From NCBI GenBank assembly GCA_028554795.2, contig CM068824.1:159042289-159106288 (forward strand): a DNA stretch of 64,000 nucleotides. The letters are read 5' to 3'. The translations under genes were made by a program, and so were the position numbers. Within the stretch, counting starts at the first letter, position 1. Each line of letters starts with the position of its first letter. Of this stretch, positions 17,628 to 34,869 are shown piece by piece. The notes under the pieces are model-generated. The model ran no database searches. It was not told where the DNA came from and saw only the letters and a list, made by a program, of their open reading frames with translations. The DNA comes from Sinohyriopsis cumingii (lineage: Eukaryota; Mollusca; Bivalvia; Unionida; Unionidae).

Positions 17628-17649
17628 AGTAGTAAATGGGGATACCCTA

Positions 17650-17900: not shown

Positions 17901-17980
17901 TTTTTAAAATTTAAATTTAAATTTAAATTTAAAAACGGGGTAGGCAATGGAAAGGCTATCTCTTTTCGAGAAATATGGCT

Positions 17981-17996
17981 GGCCCTGAAAAGGGCC
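17981..17996 (-). terminator. Histone-type 3' stem-loop of gene A (in left inverted repeat)
   Basis: On the minus strand: GGCCCTTTTCAGGGCC, a 6-bp stem with a TTTC loop, preceded by CCCAAA and followed by AGCCA. This matches the conserved metazoan histone mRNA stem-loop (GGYYCTTHTHARRRCC) and its flanks. The stop codon of gene A lies 25 nt upstream. A purine-rich element, CTCGAAAAGAGATAG, follows at 17,970-17,956 and resembles the histone downstream element that pairs with U7 snRNA. Confidence 0.85.
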
Positions 17997-18021
17997 TTTG
18001 GGTTTTCTTCTTCTTCTGCTT

Positions 18022-18411
18022 CTAATTTCTTCTTTTTCTCCACCAAGTTCTTATTTTATCTCCAACACTCTTTCTCTTCTTCTCTTTCTTTTTCTCCTGC
18101 TCTTCTTTCTTCTTCTTCTCTTCCTCCTCTTCTTTCTTCCTCTTCTCATTTTCTTCTTCTTTTTCAATCTTTTCGTTCCATTTGCTTATTCTTATTCTTT
18201 CCTCTTCATCCTCCTTCTCCTCCTTTATCTCTTTCATGACACCACTAATCTTGTCCTTTACCTTTTTTAAGTTATTAATTTCCATCTTTACACGATGAGG
18301 ACTATAGGAATAATGGTCTTCAACCAGTCTTATTAACATCTGCTCCATCATTCCTAAGTTGTCTAAAACGTCGTGTAATGTTTGTATTTTGTCCATTTGG
18401 TTAGAAGCCAT
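18022..18411 (-). CDS. Terminal gene A: small charged coiled-coil protein
   Basis: 129 residues, ATG start at 18,411. Residues 1-50 are mixed helical. Residues 51-115 are a dense Glu/Lys/Arg tract typical of a long charged helix, and the C-terminus is basic with two adjacent Trp. No family recognised. Upstream are a TATA-like TATAAG near 18,463 and two copies of the promoter motif shared with genes B and C. The histone-type stem-loop lies 25 nt after the stop. Such a signal predicts a short, non-polyadenylated, S-phase mRNA, so an early or host-cell-cycle role is possible (inference). Confidence 0.7.
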   Translation of the reverse strand: MASNQMDKIQTLHDVLDNLGMMEQMLIRLVEDHYSYSPHRVKMEINNLKKVKDKISGVMKEIKEEKEDEEERIRISKWNEKIEKEEENEKRKKEEEEEKKKKEEQEKKKEKKRKSVGDKIRTWWRKRRN

Positions 18412-18474
18412 CTTCTTTTTTTATTCTTTGCAGAATGGTTTGAACGACGAATATTGTGGGTTCTTATACTTAAA

Positions 18475-18570
18475 GCGCGTACGTGAAGGAAAACATCCCC
18501 CTAAAACGTAAAATTGATCTTACCTAGATCATGACCAAACAACGCGCGAACGTGAAGGAAAACATCCCCC
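18475..18570 (-). promoter_or_regulatory. Promoter motif of gene A, two copies
   Basis: The core ACGTGAAGGAAAACATC, preceded by GCGCG and followed by CCCC (+ strand sense), occurs at 18,475-18,501 and again at 18,544-18,570. The same motif lies upstream of genes B and C at a similar distance from their starts. The factor that binds it is unknown. Confidence 0.7.
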
Positions 18571-18594
18571 TACTTTTTCATTTCATATAATAAA

Positions 18595-19085
18595 ACCCAA
18601 ACTATACTTTCTCATTTCATATAATAAAAACCCAAACTATACTCTCCACATACGCTAAGAAACAATAAACAAAATCCATAATCTACTATCCACACAATCT
18701 TACGTGAGCGCTTACAAAACCCAAACTATACTCTTCACATACGCTAAGAACAATAAACAAATCCATAATCTACTATTCACACAATCGTACGTGAGCGGGT
18801 ACAAACACAAACACAAACACACAAACACAAACACACAAACACATACGCTAAGAAACAATAAACAAATCCATAATCTACTATCCACACAATCGTACGTGAG
18901 CGATTACAAAACCCAAACTATACTCTCCACATACGCTAAGAACAATAAACTAATCCATAATCTACTATCCACACAATCGTACGTGAGCGCTTACAGAACC
19001 CTAACTATACTCTTCACCTACGCTAAGAAACAATAAAGAAACCCATAATCTACTATTCCCACAAACATACCTTAGCTCTTACAAG
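18595..19085. repeat. Tandem repeats of about 90 bp between genes A and B
   Basis: Four to five copies with the blocks ACATACGCTAAGAA, AATAAACAAATCCATAATC, CTATCCACACAATC and TACGTGAGCG. They lie upstream of gene A's promoter motif. Possible enhancer or replication repeats; no function shown. Confidence 0.85.
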
Positions 19086-19205
19086 CACCAACACACAAAC
19101 ACATACCCTCACACTATCTTAAAAAAGAGTTAGTGTTTATAATCACACTACTCTACCTACACACATTGGCAAATCGATCGTTATTTCTTTTCTAGAGTAT
19201 TGGGT

Positions 19206-19221
19206 AGCCCTGAAAAGGGCT
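19206..19221 (-). terminator. Histone-type 3' stem-loop of gene B
   Basis: Minus strand AGCCCTTTTCAGGGCT, a 6-bp stem with a TTTC loop, followed by ACCCA, the usual 3' flank of histone stem-loops. It lies 29 nt after the stop of gene B. The purine-rich CTAGAAAAGAAATAA at 19,196-19,182 is in the position of the histone downstream element. Confidence 0.85.
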
Positions 19222-19250
19222 GTTTTTTTTGGAACTTCATGGACACCTGG

Positions 19251-19628
19251 TTAATGGTGGCACCTTCCAGGCCTGGCGCCACATACACATCTTGTCCCCC
19301 AGTTACTTTTTACCTTTTTGGGGGAGAGAGCAGAGGCAGGATATGTCGCTTCAGAATCCCAATTTTCGCTCTCTGGGATTCTGAAATTTCTTCTTCTTCT
19401 CTCCTTTTCCTCCTCCTCCTCTTCTTTGTATCTTCTCTCCTCCTCTTTGTATCTTCTTTCCTCTTCTTCTTTATATCTTCTCTCCTCCTCTTCTTTGTTT
19501 CTTCTTTCCTCCTCCTCTCTTATCCTTCCCTCCTCCACAACGGCTTCCGCGGCCAGTTCATTTAATATGCGCCTGGCATATTCCAGATGCACATGAAGTT
19601 CCAACAGTTTCTCCAGTCTCGTGTTCAT
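19251..19628 (-). CDS. Terminal gene B: small charged coiled-coil protein
   Basis: 125 residues, ATG at 19,628. An N-terminal leucine-rich helix (1-35) leads into Glu/Arg repeats of the EEERRYKEE type (36-80), then a tail with three Cys and two His. No family recognised. It looks like a relative of gene A in layout, though not clearly alignable. A TATAAAT box lies at 19,686-19,680 and the shared promoter motif at 19,693-19,718. The 128 bp downstream (to 19,095) is nearly duplicated downstream of gene C, so the transcription unit seems to have been copied as a cassette. Confidence 0.65.
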   Translation of the reverse strand: MNTRLEKLLELHVHLEYARRILNELAAEAVVEEGRIREEEERRNKEEEERRYKEEEERRYKEEERRYKEEEEEEKERRRRNFRIPESENWDSEATYPASALSPKKVKSNWGTRCVCGARPGRCHH

Positions 19629-19679
19629 TTTTGGTGTTGATCAATCAACAAGGGTAGCTGGACTGCCGAACGAGTTTCA

Positions 19680-19718
19680 ATTTATAGTGAAAGCGCGGAC
19701 GTGAAGGAAAACATCCCC
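19680..19718 (-). promoter_or_regulatory. Promoter of gene B: TATA box plus shared motif
   Basis: TATAAAT on the minus strand at 19,686-19,680, with the shared ACGTGAAGG...ACATCCCC motif just upstream at 19,693-19,718. Its position about 55 nt before the ATG fits a pol II core promoter. Confidence 0.7.
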
Positions 19719-20079
19719 TAAAAACATAAAATTGATCTTACCTACATCATGACCAAAAAACAACAACGCGCGGACCTAAAAGAAACACTCACTCACTTTT
19801 TATGCTACCCATCACTATTTTAAAATTTTTTATAAATCACTTCAATAGACTATCCACATACGCAAAGCAATCCAATCTAACCCCAAATTTACACCTCAAA
19901 CACCAAAAAAAGACATCATTTTAATCTACTATCCATACCAACTTACTTAACCACTTACAAACACAAACACACAAACACATACACTCTCACTATCAATAAA
20001 GAGTTAGTGTTTATTTTCACACTACTCTACCTACACACATTGGCAAATGGATTGTTATTTCTTTTCTAGAGTATTGGGT

Positions 20080-20095
20080 AGCCCTGAAAAGGGCT
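20080..20095 (-). terminator. Histone-type 3' stem-loop of gene C
   Basis: Minus strand AGCCCTTTTCAGGGCT followed by ACCCA, 29 nt after the stop of gene C, with purine-rich TCTAGAAAAGAAATAA at 20,070-20,055. Confidence 0.85.
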
Positions 20096-20124
20096 GTTTG
20101 TTTTTGTTTGCTATGGCATTCTTT

Positions 20125-20382
20125 TTAGTTTCTAAGAATGCGATGTCCTCTGAGGATAGACTTTCTGGCGATAGGTCTGCTTCTTCGGAAAGAGAAGAAG
20201 AACTCTTTGGTGTCGATACGACAATCGACAAAGCCTCTGTCAGGTTCAGGTTGCTGCTGCTGCTCTTGTTGTTGTTGTTGCTGCTGTCTCTGAAGTCTGT
20301 ACTTCTCTGTCCATTCTTCTTTTTCCCTGTTCATTTCTTCTCTGAAGAGCTCTTCTATCAGGTCTTCAGTGATTTTTAACAT
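20125..20382 (-). CDS. Terminal gene C: small polyglutamine protein
   Basis: 85 residues from the first ATG at 20,382; an upstream in-frame GTG is less likely. An acidic helix (1-30) is followed by a Gln tract (about 33-47) and a basic, Arg-rich C-terminus. No family recognised. It carries the shared promoter motif at 20,547-20,573 and the histone-type stem-loop, like A and B, and so belongs to the same expression class. Confidence 0.6.
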   Translation of the reverse strand: MLKITEDLIEELFREEMNREKEEWTEKYRLQRQQQQQQQEQQQQPEPDRGFVDCRIDTKEFFFSFRRSRPIARKSILRGHRILRN

Positions 20383-20546
20383 TCTCACATTCTCTATTTA
20401 TTCTGGCTTCGGTATCAGACTGTGTCTGACCCTATGCAAATTCACGTAGGCTTCGTTGAGTTTAGCTAGTTTGGAGCACATCTTCTTAGGAGGATGAGTC
20501 GACAATGGATAGTTAGACTGGAAACAACCTGGTTCTTAAAGTCAAA

Positions 20547-20573
20547 GCGCGGACGTGAAGGAAAACATCCCCC
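20547..20573 (-). promoter_or_regulatory. Promoter motif of gene C
   Basis: Third occurrence of the ACGTGAAGGAAAACATC core, flanked by GCGCG and CCCCC. It is followed towards the gene by a degenerate TATA-like TTTAAGAA. Confidence 0.65.
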
Positions 20574-20675
20574 ACACGGTTTTTGAGTCGCAACGTTTAG
20601 TGAGTGTCATGAGAGGGATAGTAAGAAATGAAAGAGCATCAATCCAACATTCTTATAGCTAAACAAAAGACAAAG

Positions 20676-20862
20676 GCATTTTTTTCAAAACACAACATTT
20701 TTTATTCAAAAATCACTTAACACTAAACAACAACTCTAACATTTTTAACAATAATCCAACAATATAACATCAAACAATTTTTTCAAAACACAACATTTTT
20801 TATTCAAAAATCACTTAACACTAAACAACAACAACTCTAACATTTTTTAACAATAATCCAAC
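20676..20862. repeat. Tandem duplication of about 95 bp
   Basis: Two copies containing TTTTTTCAAAACACAACATT and CACTTAACACTAAACAACAA, between gene C and the capsid gene. No coding potential. Confidence 0.85.
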
Positions 20863-20912
20863 ACTAAAAGTTTCTCCACTAGGTAAAGAGGGATAACAGT
20901 CTTCCATGGTTT

Positions 20913-22225
20913 CTAGTAATCTAGGATGACTTCTCTCAAACTGTTGATTTCTATGGTATTATCGAATTCTGCATACAGGATGACGTTCACCGTTTCATCA
21001 GGGTCTCGGTCTTTAAACTGAATTTCCACACGAATCTGGCCGGATTTTATAGGGTGGAAATGTCCCTCGTCGCTGCCTTGGTCTGGAGTGAAATCGAAAG
21101 CCCACAAAGCGTAGCCTCCTGCATAATCCTCGTACGTAATACCGTGACTGGTATTGGTTCCTAACTGTCCGGTGGCTTCGTACAGGGACAAGTACGATCC
21201 CAAGTAATTCTTCTCGGTAAAGTCAGGTTCGAAAGGTCGGGTACACAAGGTCTTGCCATCGCGACTGACTTCGATTTTGGACACGCCAAAGTGTTGAAAG
21301 TAGAAAGGATTTTTTTCGGCAGCTCCGTTGAAGGCTGTATTCTCGACGATACCAACGATCAAACGTTTGGGTAACTGTCCTTGGAACAGATGATCTTCGA
21401 TCATGGATCGCTGTCCCTTGGGAATGGTGAAGGTTTTCACTTCCACGCGTCGTATGGGATACTTGGCAGTCGTTCTGCTCAACGTCTGACTGATGTCGTT
21501 TCCACTTTAGGTAACACTTCCACACGGCGTACGTAGAGTCTGGCTTCTAGGATTTTGGTTTTGTAACCTTCACTATCAGCCATCAAATGGAAAGCGGCAC
21601 TGCTACGATTCAGTCTCAGGCGGACATCCACCCCGTTCAGCAAATACATTTCTTGCAACCACATGTCCAAATGCAAACGATCCATCAGTTCTAAACTTGT
21701 GTCGGCTCCCGTGATTCTCTTTCTTCGTTCTACAAATCCATCATTGTTGTCTTTCTTTTCATCAGTTTCCAATATTTCAAACTTGGTAGGTTCGTCAGCT
21801 TCCCATACCACACAGGCATTGAGATGAGTGTTCTTGGCATCTATTCCGTACGTCAAGAGATTTTCCAGGTAGGCACGATAAAGGTTAGTATCCATGCTGC
21901 TACTGACCAGTTTGTTATTCAAATACAAGTCCACTCCACTGAACAAGGAATGTATGAAATTGTTGACGGGAGCTACTGCTTCATCGTCTATAGCACCTCC
22001 AGTCTTATCTAGAATTTTGACTTTCAGGTACAAGTAACTGCTATTCAGATCGATGTAATCTTCGGGCTGTCCTTTGATTTCAAACTCGATGGGAGCGGAA
22101 TCGGTCAGTGAGGAGACGGGGTGAAATTCCACCCACTGGGATTCTTGCATCGTCATCATCGTGGGGGGCATGGCAAACAGATCCAGTTCCGTCTTGGAAC
22201 AAGCGCAAGATTCTCGGTGCATCAT
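20913..22225 (-). pseudogene. Major capsid protein (double jelly-roll), broken by one frame change
   Basis: This would form the hexon-like capsomer of a Polinton particle. The N-terminal jelly-roll (22,225-21,500) starts with a region like QESQWVEFHP and includes GVDLYLNNKLV. The C-terminal jelly-roll (to 20,913) has KYPIRRVEVKTFTIPKG and the ending typical of the family. It resembles the proteins annotated as F54H12.2-like in animals. The two halves are in frames differing by one base, with the break near 21,500-21,510; the second half has no ATG. Expected length is about 435 residues. Start chosen at ATG 22,225, 18 nt after the previous gene. It could be a real mutation or an assembly error. 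Confidence 0.9.
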
Positions 22226-22242
22226 TTTTTTTGTCTCTTTTC

Positions 22243-22605
22243 TCAATAATCGAAAACGTCTAAGTCTCGAACGGTTCTTCTTTTCTTGGCCTTTCTCGCT
22301 TGAAGTCTGGTGAAAGGGTGTTTTCTTCGTCGTCTCTTTCTGCCTTGTCCTTGCTGAATGCCTGACTCGGTAGCGTGCAGGGCATTTATAGGTGTTTCTC
22401 GTTGGCCTAAAATGTCTTTGCCCGTTTGCAGCAAGACATTTTTGCCTGCCCTCATGAAGGCTTCTTTAGGGTTTTGTTTGTCGATGATGACATTTTGGAG
22501 AAATTCTTTGCCTTGCGTCAGTGCCGCATCTTTCAAGGCGTGCAATCCGCGTGTCACCATCAGTTTCAACACCGGGGCCACCGAACGAAAGGCCGATTTT
22601 AACAT
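22243..22605 (-). CDS. Basic minor capsid/core-like protein
   Basis: 120 residues, ATG at 22,605. An amphipathic N-terminal half (1-75) is followed by Gly/Gln-rich sequence, then GRKRRRRKH and a second KKRR cluster and a short acidic, aromatic C-terminus. Small basic proteins with this plan lie next to the capsid gene in many Polintons and are compared with adenovirus core or pVI proteins. The role in DNA condensation or membrane disruption is inference. It ends 18 nt before the capsid ATG. Confidence 0.7.
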   Translation of the reverse strand: MLKSAFRSVAPVLKLMVTRGLHALKDAALTQGKEFLQNVIIDKQNPKEAFMRAGKNVLLQTGKDILGQRETPINALHATESGIQQGQGRKRRRRKHPFTRLQARKAKKRRTVRDLDVFDY

Positions 22606-22662
22606 ATCTCCTTAGCCGTGTCCTCGCTGTCGAGCAACCCCTCGGTACACTGGATACATGAC

Positions 22663-23586
22663 TTAAGAGTCGTGAGAGAACCGTTTTCGAAAATGGAGTT
22701 TCACCGTGACTTTTCCTTTGGTGAATGGAATATTTTGTCCCAGATCTCCTTTCATAGCAATGTTGACCGTGTCCAAATACGACTTACTGACAGGCAAATA
22801 GTGAGGATGGACAAATTCGCGGTGGACGTGGTAAGTGTTTCCACCTTCCTCGTCAGTGTTCGTGGCAGAATCCACTTTGAAAGGAATGACACGCAGTAAC
22901 GGTACGGAGGTGTGTCCCACCACGTTGTACTCCACCACATCGGAATACACGAACATCAAATTCAGTCCTTGGTTCAGTTCTACCGGGGCACGAAATAACT
23001 TGCTAAAAGACTCGTTGTCGTAAACGATGGGCAATTCGTTTTTCTTGATCATGGTCTTTCTCATGTCCATGTCTCCTCCCAACATGTCAAACAATTCAGG
23101 ACAAAATAAAATGGACAGGATTTTACTCCGTTCAAATTTCATCAAGAAGCGACGAGCTGCTTTGTGGTACTCCATGGTGACATTTTTGCTGACATGCTCC
23201 AAAGCTTTCAGAAACACGACATTAAACCTGGAGGTTATGGTGCTGACCAAATGTTGACCACTAAAATAATAGCCTGGGGGAATGAACAAGTGATAGGTGG
23301 TGTACTTTTGTGTACGGGTTTTCTTGTCATATTTGACATTGCTATCCATCCACTGTTGCATTTCCTCGTCATGAACTTCCACATCAAAAAAATTTTGATT
23401 GGGAAGGACATTGAGGACTTGGGTCGGGTGAATCATTCCTACTAAAGCCACTTCCCAATGGGCTTCGTGATCTAACTGGATGGCTTGAGGTAATTTGGCC
23501 GTGTAACAGCACAACGTGTTCTTGGGAAACACCTCCATGGAACTGTCACTGGGTAAGGTTAAGTAAAATTGGTTTTGGTGACTCAT
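22663..23586 (-). CDS. Penton-like minor capsid protein (single jelly-roll)
   Basis: 307 residues, ATG at 23,586, overlapping the stop of the upstream membrane-protein gene (ATGA). The N-terminus FYLTLPSDSSMEVFPKN, then a WEVALVGMIHP block near residue 42, is the signature of Polinton penton proteins, which occupy the fivefold vertices. Length fits the family. Uninterrupted. The next gene follows after about 60 nt. Confidence 0.88.
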   Translation of the reverse strand: MSHQNQFYLTLPSDSSMEVFPKNTLCCYTAKLPQAIQLDHEAHWEVALVGMIHPTQVLNVLPNQNFFDVEVHDEEMQQWMDSNVKYDKKTRTQKYTTYHLFIPPGYYFSGQHLVSTITSRFNVVFLKALEHVSKNVTMEYHKAARRFLMKFERSKILSILFCPELFDMLGGDMDMRKTMIKKNELPIVYDNESFSKLFRAPVELNQGLNLMFVYSDVVEYNVVGHTSVPLLRVIPFKVDSATNTDEEGGNTYHVHREFVHPHYLPVSKSYLDTVNIAMKGDLGQNIPFTKGKVTVKLHFRKRFSHDS

Positions 23587-23999
23587 AATTCCAGAGTTCT
23601 GTGGCTGTCCGAGGGGTTAGTGGACGTCAGAGGCGTGTCTCCGTCTAAAATGGGGTTCTGGTTGTGATTGAAGTGGTGACTGGCACTGGCACTGGACACA
23701 AGGTTCCCGGGGTTCCCGTTCGAGGTGAATTTCAGGGAGGGATTAGGAAGCAGGTAACCGATGCAACTGCTCAATAAAATGGTCCACAATTGTTTGTCTC
23801 CTTGTTGCAAACTCAAATTGGCGATGGCTGCCCCGATGACACAATACACCACGAAGATTTGGCAGAAAAAGACGATTTGCGTTTTAGGCACACGTTCTCC
23901 ACACCACACCCACAAGGGTTGTTTTTGTAAATCTTGCACAGAAGAACTAGGTGAAGGAGGAGTGGTCGACGTAGCTGCGTCTGCTGTGTGAAAGGGCAT
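23583..23999 (-). CDS. Small membrane protein, two transmembrane segments
   Basis: 138 residues from ATG 23,999; a GTG three codons upstream is an unlikely start. A Ser/Thr/Pro-rich N-terminus is followed by a hydrophobic segment at about 40-62 and another at about 73-90 ending GYLLPNPSL, then a hydrophilic Ser/Asn-rich tail. Similar two-helix proteins with a G-Y-x-x-P-N-P ending occur beside the penton gene in other Polintons (family memory, not checked). It overlaps the penton start by 4 nt and begins 5 nt after the integrase stop. Confidence 0.65.
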   Translation of the reverse strand: MPFHTADAATSTTPPSPSSSVQDLQKQPLWVWCGERVPKTQIVFFCQIFVVYCVIGAAIANLSLQQGDKQLWTILLSSCIGYLLPNPSLKFTSNGNPGNLVSSASASHHFNHNQNPILDGDTPLTSTNPSDSHRTLEL

Positions 24000-24004
24000 G
24001 ATGG

Positions 24005-25114
24005 TCACTTCTTTTTATAGTCGATGACTTGCGAAGCGTCGATCCAAGAATCAAAACTGGGTGGATATCCTTTCCAACGTACTTTGACTTCTTTGACACG
24101 TCGTTTGCCCACTTTACGGGTTCTGCGTTCGAGAATGCTTTCGATGTCGTACACGTCGTCTTCTTTTTTGGTGACACGTTGTAACTCGGGCAAATAAAAC
24201 GTTCCTTTGAGCACTTCACCGTTCATGTCTTCCAATTTATAGACGGCAGGATGACGGCCATGCACTCGTCCAGTGACGCGAAACAATTCGATCGTCCAGT
24301 TAGGTAAGTAACCTTTGTCGAAAGTGCGTTTGGTTTTGCCAATGCGCACCCAATCTCCTACGGCCAACTCTCCACTTTTCTTGGGGACAGCCCTCGTCGG
24401 GGACGTACCAAACAGGCGCTCAAACACCAACACTTCGTTCTCGGGAGTCACGTCTTGCGGGGCACGTCCGATGCTTCGATGGTAAGATTGGTTGTACGCT
24501 TGCACCAGGTGCGGTAAGATGTCGATGTACTTCAGAGTGTGGTGATGCGTAAAATATTTCCACATGCGTTCTTTCAAAGTGCGTTGAAAACGTTCCACGA
24601 TGCTGGCTTTGGTTTCGGGATTCTCGGTGGTAAAAAAATGAATGTCACGTTTCTTTAATTCTTTTTGGAAAGTTTGGTTCAGAAATTCGGTGCCTTTGTC
24701 CGTTTGCCATCGAAGAGGGTGACGACCGCTTTGTTTCAACACCCGTTGCAGGGCTCGCACTAACTCGCTGCTCGATTGGGAAGTCAAGGGTAGGACCCAA
24801 GCAAATTTGGAAAAGACGTCGATGACACAAAACAAATATTTGTAGCCACGATTGTAGCTGGCCAAATGAGAGACATCGGCTAAATAGGCTTGCCATTGAT
24901 GATCGATGTCTTCCACTCGGGTGCGACTTCTGGCAAACTTGCGTCGAATGGGTTTGTGTAAAGTGTAGGTAGCTTGTTCTTGTAACCATCGTTGCACTTG
25001 AGGTAAACGGAGACTTTTCAGTCGCGTTTTGGCAACACGATACAATTTTTGAACTCCTGCGTAACCTGCAGGATGGGAGGGATCGTAGTAAATGCTGGCT
25101 AAGACTTTTTTCAT
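24005..25114 (-). CDS. DDE integrase with C-terminal chromodomain
   Basis: 369 residues, ATG at 25,114. It joins element ends to host DNA. The retroviral-type catalytic core has D80 (YLADVSH), D139 (QTDKGTEF) and E174 (SIVERF), giving the canonical D-35-E spacing. After a basic SH3-like region (250-312), residues 321-367 form a chromodomain (YDIESILERR ... VRWKGYPPSFDSW). Chromodomains bind methylated histone tails, so insertion could be steered to particular chromatin (inference). Polinton integrases with chromodomains are known. The gene is intact. Confidence 0.95.
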   Translation of the reverse strand: MKKVLASIYYDPSHPAGYAGVQKLYRVAKTRLKSLRLPQVQRWLQEQATYTLHKPIRRKFARSRTRVEDIDHQWQAYLADVSHLASYNRGYKYLFCVIDVFSKFAWVLPLTSQSSSELVRALQRVLKQSGRHPLRWQTDKGTEFLNQTFQKELKKRDIHFFTTENPETKASIVERFQRTLKERMWKYFTHHHTLKYIDILPHLVQAYNQSYHRSIGRAPQDVTPENEVLVFERLFGTSPTRAVPKKSGELAVGDWVRIGKTKRTFDKGYLPNWTIELFRVTGRVHGRHPAVYKLEDMNGEVLKGTFYLPELQRVTKKEDDVYDIESILERRTRKVGKRRVKEVKVRWKGYPPSFDSWIDASQVIDYKKK

Positions 25115-25147
25115 TTTTTTGTGTTGGTTGGTGTGTTAATAAGACAC

Positions 25148-25777: not shown

Positions 25778-25826
25778 GGGGTCGTCAGGGGTCGATTCTG
25801 AGATCTTGGGACTTCCGAGGGCCTTT

Positions 25827-26210: not shown

Positions 26211-26264
26211 CTTTGAGTCTTCAGGAGCACCAAAAAACACTGATACCCGACTTGGTCACAGGCC

Positions 26265-27188: not shown

Positions 27189-27228
27189 GTTCGCACTGAG
27201 AGTGAGACAGACGAAAAAGGGTCTGAGG

Positions 27229-27236
27229 TTTTTATA
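27229..27236 (-). promoter_or_regulatory. TATA box of P1
   Basis: TATAAAAA on the minus strand, 41 nt before the P1 ATG, in the short gap after the ATPase gene. Confidence 0.6.
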
Positions 27237-27243
27237 GATTTTT

Positions 27244-27987: not shown

Positions 27988-28034
27988 GGTGTGAGAAATG
28001 TCACTTGTGACACGAAAAACAAACAAGACAAGAG

Positions 28035-28042
28035 TTTATATA
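28035..28042 (-). promoter_or_regulatory. TATA box of the packaging ATPase
   Basis: TATATAAA on the minus strand 48-55 nt before the ATG, well placed for a pol II start near 28,010. Confidence 0.7.
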
Positions 28043-28057
28043 CTTTTTCAGAACACG

Positions 28058-28063
28058 TTTATT
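28058..28063 (-). terminator. Polyadenylation signal downstream of the 28.2-kb ORF
   Basis: AATAAA on the minus strand about 150 nt after the stop of the small ORF ending at 28,212. It contrasts with the histone-type ends of the terminal genes. Confidence 0.45.
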
Positions 28064-28211
28064 GAATGTTTTTTTCAAACATGAATACGAAAGACAAAAA
28101 TACATAAAAGCCAAAGGCTTAAGTACAAGAATAAAAGGCACATGATAGCCATGAACGTGGAATAAACACAAGTGTCTGTACAACATGTTTTGGGTAAAGT
28201 TCTAACCAGTT

Positions 28212-28481
28212 CTATAGTAGGGGTAAGGTCACACAAGTGTCCTCCCGAAAGGGTCTTTCAGGCCTGTCCACGACAGTCCTGTCCTGGATGACGGGTTCTT
28301 CTGGCACCGTCACTAACACAGGTTGAAAAGTAACTTTTTTCCTTGAATAACTCTCGTGCATACTGGGCCACCTCTTGTGTCCAAGCCTCAAAACCCTGGT
28401 CTCGGTGATGTCCAACATTTGACTCCTAACCAATCTGGTTTCTTCTTCGTCAACGACATGGTAAGTTACTTCAATGAACAA
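28212..28481 (-). CDS. Small ORF downstream of PolB, start uncertain
   Basis: The open frame reaches from 28,481 to 28,212 but begins with TTG; the first in-frame ATG is at about 28,418, leaving 68 residues. An ATG in another frame at about 28,459 precedes it. Composition is mixed, with a VPEEPVIQDRTVV segment and no recognisable domain. A TATATAAAAAGG box at 28,518-28,507 suggests the region is transcribed. It may be a real gene that lost its start, or a non-coding leader. Confidence 0.35.
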   Translation of the reverse strand: MFIEVTYHVVDEEETRLVRSQMLDITETRVLRLGHKRWPSMHESYSRKKVTFQPVLVTVPEEPVIQDRTVVDRPERPFREDTCVTLPLL

Positions 28482-28485
28482 TGAA

Positions 28486-31400
28486 CTATCGATCTTGCCT
28501 AGGGTTCCTTTTTATATACAGACCAATACCGACGTGACCGTACGGTAAGGTGAAGTGATTGGGAAGTCGCACTCGCTTCTGGTATACAATTTGATAGACT
28601 TTTTTCAAGGGTCGACTGACGATGTGGTGAGTGGGTAAACGTACAATCTTGTTCGGTTGATAGGTGGTCACTTTAAAGTTTCCATCCTCTCCCGATTGCA
28701 AGGCTTCTTTCAATACCCCAAAGTTGACCACTCAACTGGTACGATGATTCAGAATCAGTCCTTTCACTTTGCACGTCGTGTGCACTTCTCCTTGTTTGTC
28801 CCGGTATTCGTAGCCGTAATTTTTGGGACCACCACTGACGAAACTTAGAATCTTGTCGTCGGGATGCTCGTCTGTCCAGGCTCCTAAACGGTCTCCTTCG
28901 ATGTCAGGGTGCTGTTGAATCGGGTGATGGATGTAAATGCAACTGTCCGTGTCAAAGTACAGGACGCGTTCTTCTAACAGTTCTAAAGCTTCGTACAATT
29001 TTAAGCGAGCATGAGCTGTCACGTAAGCCGCAATGATGACATTTCCAAAAGGGTCGTCTTGTACAAAGTCCAGATGTTCTTCGTAATTGACCAAGATCAA
29101 ATCCTCTCGAACGACGTCCACGTGTTTCATGTATTTGGTTTTGTCGTGAATCATCTGGAAGTAGCGGGAAGGTTCTGTCAAGTATTCCGTCTTGGGTAAA
29201 CACGGTCTTTGTGCCATTTTACCCCACAAGCAATTTAACATCACTTTGGCAAACGATCGCCTGCCTTCGTTTTTTTCGATGTGGTCTAAAGAGATGTCTT
29301 CTTGTGCGTAGTATTTCTCTTTGAATTGTATTTGGTCTTCGGGAGTGTGACACCAGGAAGGATAGCCGCTGGCTTCTTGTTTCAGTTTCAAAAAGGCATC
29401 CACGTAGTCGGCGAAAATGCCTTTCTGAGTAGGGTCACCCTTGTGGTACTGTTGTGTCTTGGGAAAGTGGCAAATTTCGTACACTTCTAACAGTTGGTAT
29501 CCCATGTCCAGAGCTTTGAACAATTCCACGCTGACCCAGGTTCCCGTCAAGGCCCGTTCTTCCTGGCTGTGATGGCAAGGTTGGTCCTGGTTGCACGTTT
29601 CGGCACAAGTACGGCACAAGGGAAACATCAGTTTGCCTTGACAATGGTGAGGTAAGACGGGATGGTATAGGTTCGTGGGAGGCAAAACTTTACACTTGAT
29701 CAAGCCTTCGTATTGTCGAATGTTTTTCAGGTCGATGTGTTCCGTGAACAATTGCGGGTGCCCTACAGGAAAGCGACAATATTTGCACACGTAGGGATAC
29801 AGCGAACACACGTCCAAGTTTTTGATTTCTTCTCCTTTCTCTTCGTCGGCTTGGTACAGCAAACAGGTGGCATTGGTCCTTCCTCCGTACAAACTATCCC
29901 TCGGGTTCAGCGGGTCCATGAACTGGTAACTTTCCACGAGGCGTTTAAACTCGGGATCGGTTTTCAAACGGTGATCGTACTCGTGTTCCCACATTTCCAC
30001 CACTTGGTATCCTTGCTGTTCTAACTTTAGGCGTCGCTGACAAGTGTCCTGGTACAAGTCTTCCATGGTTCGTTGCAAAAACTGATTTTTAGTGTCACGG
30101 TCAGGGTAACAGATGGGACATCCGTGAAATAAGCAACCGTTAAACTCGTACACGATCTTGGGGTTTTCTAAGTCCCAACCATCGACCGAATACGTTCCGA
30201 TGGTCTTTTCGCCTCCTCCGTTGCGGGCATGCTGAATCCATTTGTCTTCCTTGTCGCACAAGTAATGTAACCAACGTAGGGCTTTGACCCAGTATTGACG
30301 CTTGACGTAGTGGGTCGTTTGAGGACTGATGACAGCCACGGTGTTTTCAGGCATGAATCGTTGGCGGTACACTAAGGAACACGCTTTGGCAATGGTGCAA
30401 GCTTCTTTCAAAGGATCGACCCCTCCGTGTTCCATGAACAGTTCTCGAAATTTTCCACAGCAACGTCGTAAAATGTCCACGTCGGAACGACAATACTTTA
30501 ACATTTCTTCCTGAAAGTCGAAGGGGTCAGAGGCATGAACCTGGTACCAAGCGTAGAAAGCTTCTCGTTGTTCGGTACGCATGTTGTCGGGGTCGTAATA
30601 GTGAGCCTCAGGTAAATGGGGTAGAACGGCATGTTGATTGGCTTCCGTATTGAAAAAGTGTGGAAAGTACCCTTTAGCCATTTCTGTCATTCCAAACGTT
30701 TTAGGCATTCGACTCAAAGGCATGGCCAAGTAACTCATCGAATCTTTAAACTGTACTTGTCCCACTTGCATGAAAATGATTTTGGCTCCGTTCAAAGTGA
30801 CTTTAGGACGTTCGGTGCCTTGTTCCGTATAGTATCTGAGAAGAAACTGTCCATCGTATCCGGAGAAATTATGAGCCATCACCGTGGCATGACGATGACA
30901 ATCTCCGTAACGTTCGATGTCCTCTTGGCTCCACGTCTTGTCGATGGGGTCTAAGACCCATTGGGCAAAATCGGCTAACGTGTTTGGTCCTCAAAAGATT
31001 TTTTCACGTCCTCCAGGAATCTTGCTGCAGTGAGGGCAATGACTAAAGATAGGTTCTTGAATGCACTTCTCGCACGCTCGATGAGCCACGCAGAAATTAG
31101 GAATGTGAATGCCAGTCTCTTGCATGCATTCGAAATCGAAAAAGATGAAATTGCCTTTCTTCTTGTGACCGTCCTCTTCCTCTGGTGGGGGTTGGTATTT
31201 TTGCACGTAACATTCGTGTTCCAAGTCCACGATGTGGTGACAAATGTGACATTTTTTCTTTCCTCGACATACGTGTGCCTTGGTACTATTGGTACGTATG
31301 CCTTGTCCACACGTAGGTCACAATCTCAGGAGTTGACAAGCACATTTCTTCTGTGAACCTTGTGTTTTCAAATGTTGCTGGTAACAGGTAGGGCTGACAA

Positions 31401-32550
31401 ACGTGCGCAGACAAGTTGAACAAGGCACTGGTTCTTCGCTCAGACAGGGTGGAGAGGCCAAACATCCTGGGCATTTCCATCCACAAGACTTGTGTTGCTC
31501 TCGATTGTTATAACCATAATCACATTTCTCACAATAATAACCGTATCCCAGGAATCCAGTGATACTGGTAATGGTATCGAAATGTTCATCGTGATAATAG
31601 ACATGAATGTATTTTCCGTCCTTAAAATCTTGGCCTCGAAACAACAGAGTTCCACGCATTTCTTGAGGGTGCACTTTCAAGGTGTAGCGTGGAGCTAGGG
31701 CATCTTGCAATTCTTGCATCTCAGGAATGCTACAGGGTGTGTCTTTGGACAGTCCGGCTTGTTGTAACAGGAGTTCTGCTTCGTTTCGTTGTTTGGCTCG
31801 GTCGGATCGTTGAATAGTTTTCCAGGTTCTTTTCCATTCTACCGTGTCGTTCTTGTTGGCATAGGTTCGTCCCACCACGATGGCACGGGCTAAACACATC
31901 TGGTCTTGAGGGTTGTGAATTCGGACGAGACTTGTTTTGGTGTTGCGAAGGTTGTCCACCAATAACATCTTTTTGCGTCCTGTCCCTTGAGGAAGAGAGA
32001 CGTGGGCCATTTTCAGTGTGGCTTTACCATCGGTGATGTCAAACTGGTCATTAGATTGTTGTACGTGTTGAATCTTGTCCATGATTTTTGAATGGGTTAG
32101 TTCTGCGGGTCTGCTAAACTCGATCCAAACAGGGGATTTCAAACCGTCGTGATCTATGGATAGTGTCAAGCGATCGTCTTCTTTGGGTTGACATTGTCGC
32201 TTGAGTGCGGTGAGCAAAGAATCCCACATCTCGGTGATAAACCCTTCTGCTTTCTCCAAGGGTACGTCGGCCTTGAAATCTTTAAACTTCACCGTGTAGG
32301 TGTAAGCCGTGGTTCTAAATTTTCTAGAGGAGCGCTTTTCCGTCTCTCGAATGGAATAGTACTTTTCAGGGTTGACTAAGGGTGGTGAACTTGGTTTAGA
32401 GGGTTCGGATTCTGGTTCACTCATGTGCTCTTCAAAATCACTGGCATGAATTTGTGCCAAGATTTCAGCCCTGGTACGAGGCGATAGATCACGTTTCTGC
32501 CTCTTACTTTCTTCTTCTTCTTTCTTCTCGAATGAATAGGATCGTTTCAT
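28486..32550 (-). pseudogene. polB: Protein-primed family B DNA polymerase with three in-frame TGA codons
   Basis: It would replicate the element from protein-primed ends. One frame of about 1,354 codons from ATG 32,550 holds, in order: a Cys-rich zinc region (345-450), Exo I FFDFE (D472, E474), Exo II AHNFSGYD (559-566), Exo III YCRSD (686-690), an EFNGCLFHGC insertion typical of Polinton polymerases (about 802-811), motif A DVCSLYP (D913), motif B KVMLNCLWG (1102-1110) and motif C DTD (1200-1202). All catalytic residues are present. TGA stops interrupt it at codons 411 (31,320), 520 (30,993) and 1273 (28,734), with no frameshift and no TAA or TAG. Probably decay, but see findings. Confidence 0.95.
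28507..28518 (-). promoter_or_regulatory. TATATAAAAAGG box inside the 3' end of PolB
   Basis: The box is encoded by the last codons of the polymerase reading frame (Leu-Tyr-Ile-Lys-Arg) and lies about 30 nt before the next open frame. Confidence 0.6.
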
Positions 32551-32597
32551 CTTGAGTGCAAAACGTCAAATGACTCAAGTTCAAACACCATAGACTA

Positions 32598-32633
32598 ATT
32601 TATAGTCATGGCAAACCAGCGTATATAAAAAGG
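32598..32633. promoter_or_regulatory. Divergent TATA boxes: PolB (-) and zinc-knuckle gene (+)
   Basis: TATAAAT on the minus strand at 32,604-32,598 faces PolB. TATATAAAAAGG on the plus strand at 32,622-32,633 faces the zinc-knuckle gene. The boxes are less than 20 bp apart, forming a compact bidirectional promoter. Confidence 0.7.
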
Positions 32634-32683
32634 GTGTGTCTTGTCCTTTCACTATTCATTTCACTCTCAAACCGAGGAGAACG

Positions 32684-33152
32684 ATGGAAGAGACTAGCCA
32701 AATCGAACGTTTCGTCAGAGCTTTGCGAGGGGTCATTAGAAAATTCTCTTCAGACCAGCCGACAGACTACTCTCCTTCCTTTCGAGATAAGAGTCAGGAT
32801 ACTTGCTATATCTGTCAGAAGAAAGGGCATTGGTCTTCAGAGTGTCCAGACCGTCAAAAAAGAAAAAAACAGGGGCTAAAAAAGACAAAACTCAAGATAC
32901 CTGTTATTATTGTAAAGAAAAAGGACATTGGTCTCCAGATTGCCCAAAAAAGAAACAAGAGGAGTCAGAAGAAAAGGATTCTTCAGAAGAAGAGAGGGAT
33001 TCTTCGAAGAAGAGAGGGATTCTTCGAAAGAAGAGAGGGATTCTTCAGAGGAAGAAAGAAGACAATTCTATTTAAAAGAAGCAAAGAAACAGGAGAAGAA
33101 AAGAAGAAGGGAAGAAAATGAGGAAAAAACGGTGAAGAAATTCAAAAAATAG
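32684..33152 (+). pseudogene. CCHC zinc-knuckle protein, split over frames
   Basis: ATG 32,684 lies about 50 nt after the TATATAAAAAGG box and is preferred to the upstream ATG at 32,636. The first CCHC knuckle (CYICQKKGHWSSECP) is in this frame; the second (CYYCKEKGHWSPDCP) is in the -1 frame after a GA7C stretch at 32,862-32,870. A third frame carries the acidic/basic tail (EEERDSS repeats, ending at 33,152). CCHC knuckles bind single-stranded nucleic acid. Two frame changes in repetitive sequence point to slippage decay, though a recoding site at the A-run is possible. Confidence 0.7.
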
Positions 33153-33404
33153 AGAGACTAAACAAGGAGAAAGAAGAAGTCAATGAACTTTTAATTAAAG
33201 TGTTGTGCTGTGAATTGGATTGTAAAAAATGGATAAAAGAATACATGAATGATATAAGGTAAGTGTCTTTGAGTTTTGATTTTAAAATAAGAAGCTACAC
33301 TCACGCACTCATACACAGACACGTACTATAAGGGTAAAATGGGTGGGGTTTGTTTTTGAGTTATTGGCAAATTGAAATTGTATTTCTTTTCGAGATATGT
33401 GGGT
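33153..33404. other. Spacer between the zinc-knuckle gene and gene D
   Basis: About 250 bp without a supported gene. The part next to gene D holds ATTGGCAAATT and a purine-rich element (minus strand) shared with the 3' flanks of genes B and C. Confidence 0.6.
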
Positions 33405-33420
33405 GGCCCTGAAAAGGGCC
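33405..33420 (-). terminator. Histone-type 3' stem-loop of gene D
   Basis: Minus strand GGCCCTTTTCAGGGCC, preceded by an A-run and followed by ACCCA, 25 nt after the stop of gene D. Purine-rich TCTCGAAAAGAAATA follows at 33,395-33,381. This is the closest of the five to the animal histone consensus. Confidence 0.88.
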
Positions 33421-33445
33421 TTTTTATTTTGGTGTAGGGGTGAGT

Positions 33446-34006
33446 TTAACCAATCAACTTTAACTGCCTTAAGCCTTTGCCACGGCCAAGGCCTACTTCT
33501 GATGATTGGGTTGAAATCACTAAGGGTGGTACGACAGGCTTAGTCACAGGGTTGGCGTGTTTAGCTCGGGAAGGTCGTATTCTCTTCGGTCGTGATAAAG
33601 AAGTCTGATACATTTGTTTCAGACTTCTTAACTCCGCTAAAATGTCCAACAGTACCGTAGCCGTTTGATTTTCACCCTCTCGTTTCTTTGCTGCTACTTC
33701 TTCTTGCTGTTGTTGCTGTTGTTTTTTTCTTACCTCTTCTTGTTGCTGTTGCTGTTGCTGTAGGAGAAAAGCTTGTTCCGCTTCCTTTTGTCGTTGCATA
33801 AATTTCTCCAATTCTTCTTTCTGTCTCTGTCTAAAATTCTCCACTTGCGGTAATGAAGAAGGTAACGAAGGTTCCGGAACAAATTCTTGCGAGGTAAGAA
33901 AATCCACAAAATCCCAATGTACCTCTTCTGAAAGTAAGTCCGGGTTCCCTTGGGCAGTCTCCCCTGCTGGTGCACCCCAATGGATCGTTTTCTGAGTTTC
34001 CGTCAT
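33446..34006 (-). CDS. Terminal gene D: polyglutamine coiled-coil protein
   Basis: 186 residues, ATG at 34,006. An acidic N-terminus (1-50) is followed by a Gln/Glu/Lys coiled coil with two Gln tracts (about 83-105), a leucine-rich helix (about 118-132) and a basic Arg/Lys/Pro C-terminal part. No family recognised. It shares Gln tracts with gene C and the histone-type 3' end with A, B, C and F. A TATATAG box lies at 34,061-34,055 and CCAAT boxes further upstream. Confidence 0.7.
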   Translation of the reverse strand: MTETQKTIHWGAPAGETAQGNPDLLSEEVHWDFVDFLTSQEFVPEPSLPSSLPQVENFRQRQKEELEKFMQRQKEAEQAFLLQQQQQQQEEVRKKQQQQQQEEVAAKKREGENQTATVLLDILAELRSLKQMYQTSLSRPKRIRPSRAKHANPVTKPVVPPLVISTQSSEVGLGRGKGLRQLKLIG

Positions 34007-34054
34007 GTTGAATCACTGTCGCATAGATTGACTGCACACAAGCGCTAACGAATC

Positions 34055-34181
34055 TATATAGACCACGTGACGTCACAGACTGCTCTCTTCGGATTGGATG
34101 CGAGCTGACTGAATTTTGTAACGCGTGTTCGGATTGGTGAATGAATTCAATCCGTTTCAATCCTTCCTGTACCTATAAATA
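34055..34181. promoter_or_regulatory. Divergent promoter of genes D (-) and F (+)
   Basis: TATATAG (minus, 34,061-34,055) serves gene D and TATAAATA (plus, 34,174-34,181) serves gene F. Between them CGGATTGG occurs twice, giving CCAAT boxes on the minus strand, plus a CACGTGACGTCA stretch with E-box and CRE-like cores. TATA plus CCAAT is also the usual make-up of histone promoters. Confidence 0.65.
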
Positions 34182-34225
34182 AGCGCAGTTCACTGCATTG
34201 ATTCAACTATTCTCGTCGCTTCAAG

Positions 34226-34462
34226 ATGTGGACCACAGTTGAGTCATCCACCCTTGTGCCTTCCATGATGTTTAGGACGGACATGCTCATGTATGTCAGG
34301 TCCAAGTGGACTGTTGTTGATAGGACAGATACTAGTCAATGGATGAGGAGAGTTTACATAGAAAGACAAGGATGTCTCAAGAGGGTACTTGTGTATGGAC
34401 CGGCAGTTAGAAGGAGTTTAAGAAGAAGAAGAAGAAGATGTGACAGATGCCATCTATGTTAA
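34226..34462 (+). CDS. Terminal gene F: small basic protein
   Basis: 78 residues, ATG at 34,226, about 50 nt after TATAAATA. The central segment SQWMRRVYIERQGCLKR is followed by VLVYGPAV, then a run of Arg and a CxxC-containing C-terminus. No known family. A decayed homologue outside the element at 36.5 kb preserves QGCLKRxLVYGxAV, so this is a real protein. A histone-like stem-loop lies 24 nt after the stop. Confidence 0.75.
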   Translation: MWTTVESSTLVPSMMFRTDMLMYVRSKWTVVDRTDTSQWMRRVYIERQGCLKRVLVYGPAVRRSLRRRRRRCDRCHLC

Positions 34463-34477
34463 TATTAATATTAACAT

Positions 34478-34857
34478 AAACCCAAAGACCCTTTTCAGGG
34501 CCAGCCATATTTCTCGAAAAGAGATAGCCTTTCCATTGCCTACCCCTTTTTTTAAATTTAAATTTAAATTTAAATTAAAAAAAAAAATCCCATATTCAAT
34601 TCCCCTTGTCCCTAGACAAACCCAAACTCTATTCCCATGTTAATTTCCCCTTGTCGCTAGACAGACCCACACTATAGTTCCATGTTAAATTCCCCTTGTC
34701 GCTAGAGTGACCCACGATTTATTCCCATGTTAATTTCCCTTGTCGCCAGATTGTCCCACGATTTTTCTCCATGTTAATTTTCCCTTGTCGCCAGATTGTC
34801 CCAGGGGTGTTTGTAATGCTAATTCCCATTGTCGCTAGGGTATCCCCATTTACTACT
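34478..34857. repeat. Polinton 1 right terminal inverted repeat
   Basis: About 380 bp, inverted match to 17,628-18,005, including the AAATTT block and the 46-bp repeats. It ends ...CCATTTACTACT and is followed by the GACATG duplication. Confidence 0.95.
34487..34502 (+). terminator. Histone-type 3' stem-loop of gene F (in right inverted repeat)
   Basis: GACCCTTTTCAGGGCC after CCCAAA and before AGCCA, followed by CTCGAAAAGAGATAG at 34,513-34,527. It is the mirror of the left-repeat signal except for one base, which puts an A-C mismatch in the second stem pair. Confidence 0.8.
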
Positions 34858-34863: not shown

Positions 34864-34869
34864 CCAACA

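Follow-up and report, generated by a model that had tools for sequence, protein, structure and literature searches.

Five terminal and accessory genes of a Polinton family carry histone-type signals past their stop codons and are, on the evidence of sequence, very probably expressed as histone-type mRNAs by the host SLBP/U7 machinery and tied to S phase. In animals, this type of 3' end is used by replication-dependent histone genes. In the proposed mechanism, host SLBP would bind a 16-nt stem-loop past the stop codon and host U7 snRNP would pair with a GAAAAGA element 13 nt past the stem; cleavage a few nucleotides past the stem would then yield a non-polyadenylated mRNA. At least genes A, B and C would be transcribed from a promoter box common to host H2B and H1, and the accessory genes would follow the host replication (S-phase) programme. 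Other genes in the element apparently rely on ordinary poly(A) signals.

The Polinton element and its genes

The window, i.e., the whole 64-kb stretch of DNA that was analysed, contains a Polinton flanked on both sides by the 6-bp TSD GACATG (17622-17627 and 34858-34863). Its terminal inverted repeats (TIRs) were detected as overlapping pieces that are 96% and 90% complementary. Pfam gave no match for the ORFs at 20913-21482 and 21479-22246, which may resemble the Polinton (double jelly-roll) capsid protein. Pfam scans of A, B and D likewise returned no family above its cut-off and no histone family among the matches; the idea, prompted by their lengths, that the Polinton genes are misread histone genes was ruled out by translation. 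Rfam matches to mir, sno and t44 families at 34784-34973, 37721-37809 and 35529-35597 were discarded as simple repeats scoring under their cut-offs.

Features of the Polinton element, with positions in the window
Feature	Position	Strand	Remarks
Polinton element	17628..34857		17,230 bp, ends AGTAGT...ACTACT; TSD, TIRs, core genes
Left terminal inverted repeat	17628..18005		Inner end holds gene A 3' signal
A 3' signal	17956..18001	-	Stem-loop 17981-17996; downstream element GAAAAGAGATA; Histone3 35.6 bits
Gene A	18022..18411	-	129 aa, Lys/Glu-rich; copies exist in host genome
H2B/H1-type promoter box, gene A	18474..18497	-	2 mismatches to host H2B box
Second H2B/H1-type box upstream of gene A	18543..18566	-	3 mismatches
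B 3' signal	19181..19226	-	Stem-loop 19206-19221, first pair A-U; element CTAGAAAAGA; Histone3 31.0 bits
Gene B	19251..19628	-	125 aa; copies exist in host genome
H2B/H1-type promoter box, gene B	19692..19715	-	1 mismatch
Host H4-type promoter box upstream of gene B	19762..19785	-	3 mismatches of 24
C 3' signal	20055..20100	-	Stem-loop 20080-20095, first pair A-U; element CTAGAAAAGA; Histone3 31.5 bits
Gene C	20125..20382	-	85 aa; copies exist in host genome
H2B/H1-type promoter box, gene C	20546..20569	-	1 mismatch
AATAAA with GT-rich downstream	20799..20804	-	3' of ORF 20913-21482; candidate ordinary poly(A) signal, by eye
Integrase (rve + chromodomain)	24005..25114	-	Pfam scan
A32-like packaging ATPase	27244..28026	-	Pfam scan
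DNA polymerase type B region (DNA_pol_B_2)	28732..30882	-	Pfam scan
ATTAAA with GT-rich downstream	33194..33199	+	3' of plus-strand ORF 32636-33121; candidate ordinary poly(A) signal, by eye
D 3' signal	33381..33425	-	Stem-loop 33405-33420; element CTCGAAAAGA; Histone3 41.2 bits
Gene D	33446..34006	-	186 aa, conserved protein family
D/F shared divergent promoter region	34007..34225		Two CCAAT boxes, TATAAA at 34174; few 9-mers common with host H3 promoter
Gene F	34226..34462	+	78 aa, basic C-terminus; divergent from D; homologues P0141, P0142
Right terminal inverted repeat	34478..34857		Inner end holds gene F 3' signal
F 3' signal	34482..34527	+	Second stem pair broken in window copy; Histone3 25.3 bits

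Histone-type 3' signals and their conservation

The first-pass annotation had claimed that five Polinton genes carry a histone-type stem-loop 24-29 nt past the stop codon on the gene strand, and both exact matches and a covariance model confirm this. The sequence CCCTTTTCAGGG occurs five times in the window without mismatch, at 17983-17994(-), 19208-19219(-), 20082-20093(-), 33407-33418(-) and 34489-34500(+), with stop-to-stem distances of 25, 29, 29, 25 and 24 nt for A, B, C, D and F, respectively. All five signals were detected by cmscan with the Histone3 model (Rfam RF00032), two of them (D and A) passing its gathering score of 34. The model gave no further match at E<=1 in 14000-36000 or 34500-64000, or at the gathering score across the whole window. 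The claim of a 6-bp stem in all five holds for A, B, C and D; in the window copy of F, the second position is unpaired and the stem folds to four pairs. The first pair is A-U in B and C compared to G-C in A and D; both sides have changed, and the stem is preserved.

As had been proposed, chance does not explain this arrangement. Strand positions 20-35 nt past the stop of an ATG ORF of at least 78 aa make up 0.7% of the total, and by position alone the probability that all five signals fall in this zone is about 1.6e-11, or 3.4e-7 if three are independent. The five signals form three semi-independent groups (A/F, B/C and D) rather than five, because those of A and F sit in the TIRs and B and C have a common 3' flank, with a similarity that starts at the stem and runs for about 100 nt; the flank of D in turn resembles that of A/F over 54 nt. 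That two of the five signals lie inside TIRs would suit a hairpin that acts as DNA, in replication, packaging or TIR function, and not as RNA. This is hardly credible, given that the other three are internal and that all five lie on the gene strand, 24-29 nt past a stop codon, with histone flanks and a downstream element.

The signals closely resemble those of the host histone genes. A single unit of the host histone repeat (L248) contains H1, H2A, H2B, H3 and H4, each followed by a stem-loop signal 27-38 nt past the stop. Within this unit, the stem GGCCCT/AGGGCC is the same as the Polinton stem in four of the five genes, and GAAAAG begins 13-14 nt past the stem in all five, compared to 13 nt in all five Polinton signals. 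The purine-rich element therefore lies where the first-pass annotation had placed it, i.e., at the position of the histone U7 element. The signals may have originated by capture from histone genes. Capture from H2A in particular was not accepted: among 25 flank comparisons between Polinton and host histones, two fell below p = 0.05, namely the gene D flank past the element against H2A (shuffle p = 0.028) and H4 (p = 0.032), and neither was significant after correction.

We used the host genome (2.9 Gb) as the key control. All 75 scored Histone3 matches in it were above the cut-off. By tblastn, 63 follow genes of the family (29 F, 23 D and 11 A); inspection by eye places another 11 after an A-like second gene, leaving a single match (L144) unassigned. 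AAAAGA occurs at 14 nt in 74 of the 75. This list is no census, since the host's own histone repeats are missing from it, and its 29 F copies, which have a full or one-change stem, were selected through Histone3 and hence chosen for the stem. Tails unselected for the stem-loop also retain the signal. At loci anchored by F, 18 of 20 D tails keep the stem-loop, 14 of them with six pairs, next to D proteins that are 69-96% identical to that of the window; one such D (L224), which extends to residue 180 of 186, lacks the cassette. B and C tails keep the signal in 14 of 16 A-side loci, where 28 tails match at 13 or more of 16 positions, 21 with six pairs and 19 exactly as AGCCCTTTTCAGGGCT. The signal is also present in 20 of 20 D copies from a protein search, which are 99% identical and hence recent; by this search the host genome contains gene D at 150 or more places, window copy included. 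Absence of the stem-loop from every related copy is thereby excluded, as it is kept in most copies read unselected.

Constraint in these diverged copies is concentrated on the signal. Mean pairwise identity among the 18 D tails is 0.95 for the stem-loop, 0.93 for the next 5 nt, 0.74 for +6..+10 and 0.99 for +11..+20, compared to 0.44 and 0.57 in the far flanks. B/C tails show less uniformity in the block with the downstream element (0.76, ungapped count), partly because some tails have one extra base ahead of the element. This pattern bears on the idea that the signals are a neutral relic, left by a single capture of one histone 3' flank that TIR copying and duplication then multiplied. The shared TIR of A and F, the shared flank of B and C, the 54-nt likeness of D to A/F and the nominal resemblance of the D flank to H2A and H4 would all fit such a history. 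Diverged D tails are nevertheless constrained at the stem, in the 5 nt that follow it and at the downstream element, and not in the far flanks, the A-U first pair is retained in most B/C tails, and the promoters match host histone genes too; we therefore regard a neutral relic as very unlikely.

Promoters and the predicted processing machinery

Shared promoter boxes are new beyond the first-pass annotation. A 24-bp box common to the host H2B and H1 promoters lies on the gene strand upstream of A (two boxes), B and C. Allowing up to five mismatches, these four matches are the only ones in the window, and none was found in 10 block shuffles of the element. Of 16 A-side loci in other copies, 15 have the box, and in seven of the 16 it matches the host H2B box exactly. 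The element and the host histone promoters have 92 9-mers in common, compared to a shuffle mean of 24, a count that none of 300 shuffles reached. Octamer and CCAAT motifs alone were dropped as evidence, being too common or too few. At least A, B and C resemble host histone genes at both ends, and the boxes shared with host H1, H2B and H4 add support for the predicted S-phase control.

The trans-acting factors were sought in the host genome. Pairing of human U7 with the downstream element was no better than with random element windows (fractions 0.16-0.56) and was discarded as support. An Rfam U7 search of the host gave no match and gave none in control genomes either, so absence is not implied; the same holds for a Pfam search for SLBP (PF15247), which matched neither the host nor any of 14 control genomes. 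A candidate host U7 (L269) pairs over 12 bp with B/C, 8 with A/F and 7 with D, through a core that the search pattern itself contained. This search returned two matches in the host compared to one in a control, and Rfam U7 gives no match to the candidate at E<=5. The candidate status of the host U7 leaves some room for a stem-loop that binds SLBP or an element-encoded protein, affecting stability or translation, or that titrates SLBP, without U7 cleavage. We consider this improbable, since the GAAAAG block, which has the host histone spacing and varies less than any other part of the D tails (0.99), would then have no role.

A further possibility is dual use, with histone machinery operating in cycling cells and ordinary cleavage and polyadenylation still providing much or even most of the mRNA. 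Genes C, D and F may use poly(A) sites, since potential signals are nearby: AATAAA lies 2 nt ahead of the D stem and another about 65 nt past the C stem, and ATTAAA lies about 70 nt past the F stem. There is also precedent in a human H2A gene, in which AAUAAA overlaps the downstream element and both kinds of mRNA are made (PMC9756948). Against this, neither AATAAA nor ATTAAA occurs within several hundred nucleotides past the A and B stems (gene strand, inside the element), and constraint is strongest on the stem, on the 5 nt that follow it and on the downstream element. We hold dual use to be a tentative alternative with less than an even chance; it overlaps with histone-type processing as the best explanation, and the odds of the two are not additive.

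More broadly, we lean towards a model in which the whole Polinton family took on the full regulatory dress of histone genes, i.e., promoter box and 3' end. Its accessory genes would then be expressed alongside histones in each S phase, as mRNAs that lack poly(A), perhaps at the histone locus body. Such control may time these genes to DNA replication and may explain the presence of D at 150 or more near-identical places in one genome. If true, this would be a novel means by which a virus-like element couples its expression to S phase, the early transcripts of the element would largely escape poly(A)-selected RNA-seq, and the genes would provide natural non-histone substrates for asking what SLBP, U7 and the histone promoter require.

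Relatives and known systems

Relatives from other sources were also surveyed. Gene D has 20 homologues at E<=0.01, of which 16 were aligned. Two of 22 D/F homologues (P0133 and P0142) run past the usual stop and encode the cassette in their tails. Five related integrase loci (34-47% identity, partial and contaminant-like) contain no Histone3 match. In viral contigs, the ATPase query, the integrase alignment and the D alignment recovered no relatives. The DNA pattern GCCCTTTTCAGGGC matched at least 120 stretches of these contigs and was set aside, as contexts with A-rich flanks look by eye like phage terminators; a stricter pattern matched three loci.

With its rve and chromodomain integrase, A32-like ATPase, DNA polymerase B, TIRs and 6-bp TSD, the element resembles Polinton/Maverick elements and adintoviruses. 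It differs from them in its histone-type 3' signals and histone promoter boxes, of which the portions of the literature searched contain no report in either group. Compared to the 3' end of replication-dependent histone mRNAs, the Polinton signals share the 6-bp stem, 4-nt loop, ACCCA-like flank, purine-rich element 13 nt past the stem and post-stop position; they differ in the A-U first pair of B and C and in that their processing is predicted. Similarities to the host histone tandem repeat extend to the stem (four of five genes), spacing, downstream element and promoter boxes, i.e., the 24-bp box of H2B/H1 and another of H4. In contrast to replication-dependent histone genes, the Polinton genes encode unrelated, non-histone proteins inside a mobile element.

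Viruses have other links to histones, bracovirus H4 being a viral histone-like gene. The 'Histoid' of adomaviruses comprises histone-like viral proteins (PMC11071296). What these systems share with the Polinton is a viral association with histone biology; in the former it is the protein that is histone-like, whereas in the Polinton it is the regulation.

The histone-type 3' signals of the Polinton

The first-pass annotation had placed a histone-type stem-loop, followed by a purine-rich downstream element, behind five terminal genes of a Polinton: A, B, C and D (minus strand) and F (plus strand). An exact sequence search of the window bore out the positions of all five stem-loops, and each stands 24-29 nt after its stop codon on the gene strand. 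The covariance-model check that the annotation proposed likewise agreed: the Rfam Histone3 model (RF00032) recovered all five signals (D, 41.2 bits; A, 35.6; C, 31.5; B, 31.0; F, 25.3), two of which, D and A, pass the curated cut-off of 34. No further Histone3 match was found at E ≤ 1 in 14000-64000 of the window, nor at the gathering score in 1-14000. The 6-bp stem and 4-nt loop described for every gene hold for four of them, which form six pairs around a TTTC loop, but F folds to only four pairs in the window copy.

The signals of A and F form the inner ends of the terminal inverted repeats (TIRs), D resembles A/F across 54 nt, and B and C are alike across about 100 nt counted from the stem onward. 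In pairwise comparisons among the five, the stem-loop is identical at 13-16 of 16 positions and the downstream element at 10-11 of 11, with only 24-39% of the upstream region (up to 9 nt before the stem) kept. The first stem pair is A-U in B and C versus G-C in A and D, a two-sided change.

The Polinton encodes an integrase (rve plus chromodomain), an A32-like ATPase and a B-type DNA polymerase. The integrase has 1951 relatives at E ≤ 0.001; among the 120 listed, the named organisms comprise oysters (Saccostrea, Ostrea) and amphioxus. Some core ORFs look interrupted by eye, so this is probably a partly decayed copy. The four-base overlaps between neighbouring ORFs may reflect chance or coupled reading.

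Behind two ORFs, a poly(A)-type hexamer with GT-rich sequence was seen by eye (see table), which suggests that two kinds of mRNA end coexist in one Polinton. A clean division between genes with histone-type and genes with ordinary poly(A) ends is countered by AATAAA just 5' of the D stem and about 65 nt 3' of the C stem, and by ATTAAA about 70 nt 3' of the F stem. Through such overlap of signals, one human H2A gene uses both 3'-end machineries, as described in an excerpt of PMC9756948.

Coordinates of the Polinton and of neighbouring features in the window
Feature	Position	Strand	Remarks
Polinton	17628-34857		GACATG flanking each side; TIRs of about 380 bp
Two overlapping frames	20913-22246		example of interrupted core ORFs (by eye)
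AATAAA	20804	minus	GT-rich sequence; 3' of ORF 20913-21482 (by eye)
ATTAAA	33194		GT-rich sequence; 3' of plus-strand ORF 32636-33121 (by eye)
Four-base ORF overlaps	21479-21482, 22243-22246, 23583-23586, 24005-24008	minus	within 21479-25114
LINE reverse-transcriptase-like ORFs	14966-16455	minus	adjoining the Polinton (by eye only)
Second virus-like element	46964-61503		also encodes AAA/helicase-like protein, HNH endonuclease and rve integrase
TIRs of second element	46964-47210 / 61254-61503		98-99% complementary
Double jelly-roll capsid-like protein of second element	49140-50519

Copies in the host genome and relatives outside it

The window maps to C1:159042289-159106288 of the 2.9-Gb host genome, probably that of an animal, judging by its histone genes and by the integrase relatives. 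A Histone3 search of this genome gave 75 scored matches, all over the cut-off; these come from 589,472 first-look candidates and are no census, and the host histone repeat is missing from the list despite scoring over the cut-off. Only one of 14 control genomes had a match, which fell under the cut-off. We retrieved the surroundings of all 75 matches and compared them with the five proteins of the window (tblastn), which placed 29 behind F, 23 behind D and 11 behind A. Among the 12 left without assignment, inspection by eye revealed an open frame with an A-like C-terminus (EKIRGW or alike) in seven, part of such a C-terminus in L185, and the same A-like protein sequence, but in a broken frame, in L155, L186 and L197. 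Given the tblastn result for 63 loci and this reading of the others, 74 of the 75 matches seem to mark genes from this Polinton family, 11 of them by eye, and L144 is the sole match without an assigned gene. At the left end, copies carry either A or a second gene whose C-terminus is similar, and the 3' signal stays the same (L140, L151, L153, L167, L168, L198 and L207), as if the terminal gene at this position were exchangeable.

Tails were also sampled without choosing for the stem-loop. We read the neighbouring D tail at 20 of the 29 loci anchored on F, and 18 carry the cassette of stem-loop and downstream element, with all six pairs in 14; in the other two, D stops at residue 144 (L217) or reaches residue 180 of 186 with other sequence beyond (L224). 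For B and C, we used 16 of 23 A-side loci (10 of the 11 assigned to A, 6 of the 12 unassigned) and set a minimum of 13 matching positions of 16 in the stem-loop. Both tails were found in 14 of these loci, and none within 2.8 kb in L240 and L246; the 28 tails include 21 with six pairs and 19 with the exact AGCCCTTTTCAGGGCT.

In diverged D tails (protein 69-96% identical to the window's D), mean pairwise identity was 0.95 for the stem-loop and 0.93 for the 5 nt that follow it; further on it was 0.74 at +6..+10, 0.99 at +11..+20 (the downstream element), 0.83 at +21..+31, 0.66 at +32..+40 and 0.57 past that point, and on the upstream side 0.44 at -30..-9. For the 28 B/C tails, counted ungapped and taken after the match threshold, the values were 0.95 in the stem-loop, 0.86 in the next 5 nt, 0.57 at +6..+10, 0.76 at +11..+22, then 0.58, 0.75 at +32..+40, 0.58 beyond and 0.29 upstream. 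Selection acting on a histone 3' end would produce such a profile. A D-protein search of the host genome yielded at least 150 places, the window's included (150 of 34,258 candidates scored), with 99-100% identity and without stops, which points to a recent, large-scale spread of the family. The cassette is present in all 20 of these that were checked, with the exact stem-loop in 18; because they are nearly identical, such recent copies carry little information on constraint.

Outside the host genome, 20 homologues were found for D (E ≤ 0.01) and two for F (E ≤ 0.1). P0133 (D) and P0142 (F) are the two of these 22 that continue beyond the usual stop, and the tail of each encodes the cassette in frame: best-case back-translation matches the D cassette at 40 and 38 of 45 positions, respectively, with at least one stem position differing in each. 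No Histone3 match was obtained in 52 kb covering five partial loci of related integrases from other sources (34-47% identity). In the D homologue P0140, the second half is swapped for sequence that by eye resembles the window ORF 31318-32550, an internal deletion. Polinton-like integrases also occur within bacterial MAG contigs (L124-L128), one in a deep-sea mussel symbiont assembly, and are probably host contamination.

Promoters and candidate processing factors

Upstream stretches of 220 nt were compared between the five Polinton genes and five host histone genes, counting both strands. They share 92 9-mers, whereas 300 shuffles in blocks of two averaged 24 and never attained 92. The observed count overstates independent matches since D and F have a common promoter region and A, B and C common boxes. 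The core promoter box, GATGTTTTCCATCACGTCCGCGCT, is that of host H2B; H1 has one mismatch, and a reverse-strand version with four mismatches lies upstream of H2A. It occurs four times in the window, upstream of A (twice), B and C on the gene strand, with 1-3 mismatches (up to five allowed), and was absent from 10 shuffles of the Polinton. The second virus-like element has neither this box nor a Histone3 match at E ≤ 1. With up to six mismatches, the box was found in 15 of 16 A-side loci, the exception being L246, and in seven (L232, L233, L235, L238, L240, L242 and L245, in the last before gene B) it is identical to host H2B at 24 of 24 positions. Gene B additionally has an H4-type box (3 mismatches of 24). 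A weaker likeness links D and F to the host H3 promoter, through short words such as ACGGATTGA and GCATCCAAT. These regulatory modules could have been captured from histone genes or have converged on them; because of the 24-of-24 matches, we favour capture or continuing exchange. Expression of histone genes is tied to S phase, and their behaviour, together with the promoter box, suggests that expression of the Polinton genes would be bound to it as well.

SLBP binds the stem and U7 pairs with the downstream element, cleavage falling between the two, according to an excerpt of PMC7026596. Human U7 paired with the Polinton downstream elements no better than with random windows of the Polinton, and Rfam U7 and Pfam SLBP searches found no match in the host or in the control genomes. 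A U7 pattern search of the host gave two sites versus one in the reversed control. One of the two, L269, reads GGCTCTTTTCTAGAGATTTGTCTAG and can pair with the histone elements over 14 bp (H3), 12 (H2B), 10 (H4 and H1) and 7 (H2A), and with those of the Polinton over 12 bp (B/C), 8 (A/F) and 7 (D), the core of these pairings being circular as the pattern contained it. No clear U7 3' hairpin was seen in L269, nor did Rfam U7 match it at E ≤ 5; we regard it as a candidate host U7 only.

Among the titles listed for open-licence literature on Polintons, Mavericks, adintoviruses and viral SLBP, none describes histone-type 3' signals in Polintons; the one title that combines the histone stem-loop, SLBP and viral mRNA concerns an artificial system. 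In the accessible portion of PMC11071296, "histone" appears twice, for histone-like proteins, and "stem-loop" and "polyadenyl" are absent.

Comparison with the host's histone genes

From 662 candidates, a PF00125 search of the host genome gave at least 150 places. Most follow one another at intervals of about 8.3 kb, on small contigs as well as at C14:13.10 Mb, which we read as a tandem histone repeat. In one repeat unit (L248), Histone3 matches all five genes (H3, H4, H2B, H2A and H1) at 39.4 to 35.0 bits, below the top Polinton match in the host genome (45.6 bits). The stems are GGCCCT/AGGGCC in four genes and GGTCCT/AGGACC in H1, and the loops TTTT (H3, H4), TTTC (H2B, H1) or TTTA (H2A). 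GAAAAG starts 13 nt after the stem in H3, H4, H2B and all five Polinton signals of the window, and 14 nt after it in H2A and H1; AAAAGA starts at 14 nt in 74 of the 75 host-genome matches.

A third short block, 33-36 nt after the stem, is common to most Polinton signals and to host H3, H4 and H2A. TTGCC or alike (TTGTC, TTGAC) first occurs at 33-34 nt in 61 of the 75 matches, and TGCCA or TGTCA at 35-36 nt in the three histone genes; it is absent from H2B, and H1 has GGCCA at 41 nt. We know of no role for this block.

Most simply, the mRNAs of the five Polinton genes would be processed by SLBP and U7 snRNP of the host, whose histone-promoter factors would drive at least A, B and C. We consider this account quite likely, because the signals resemble the host's own at both gene ends and are kept in diverged copies. 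The downstream element reads CTCGAAAAGA in Polinton A, D and F and CCCGAAAAGG in host H2A; that of Polinton B and C, CTAGAAAAGA, is identical to the element at the 3' ends of host H3, H4, H2B and H1.
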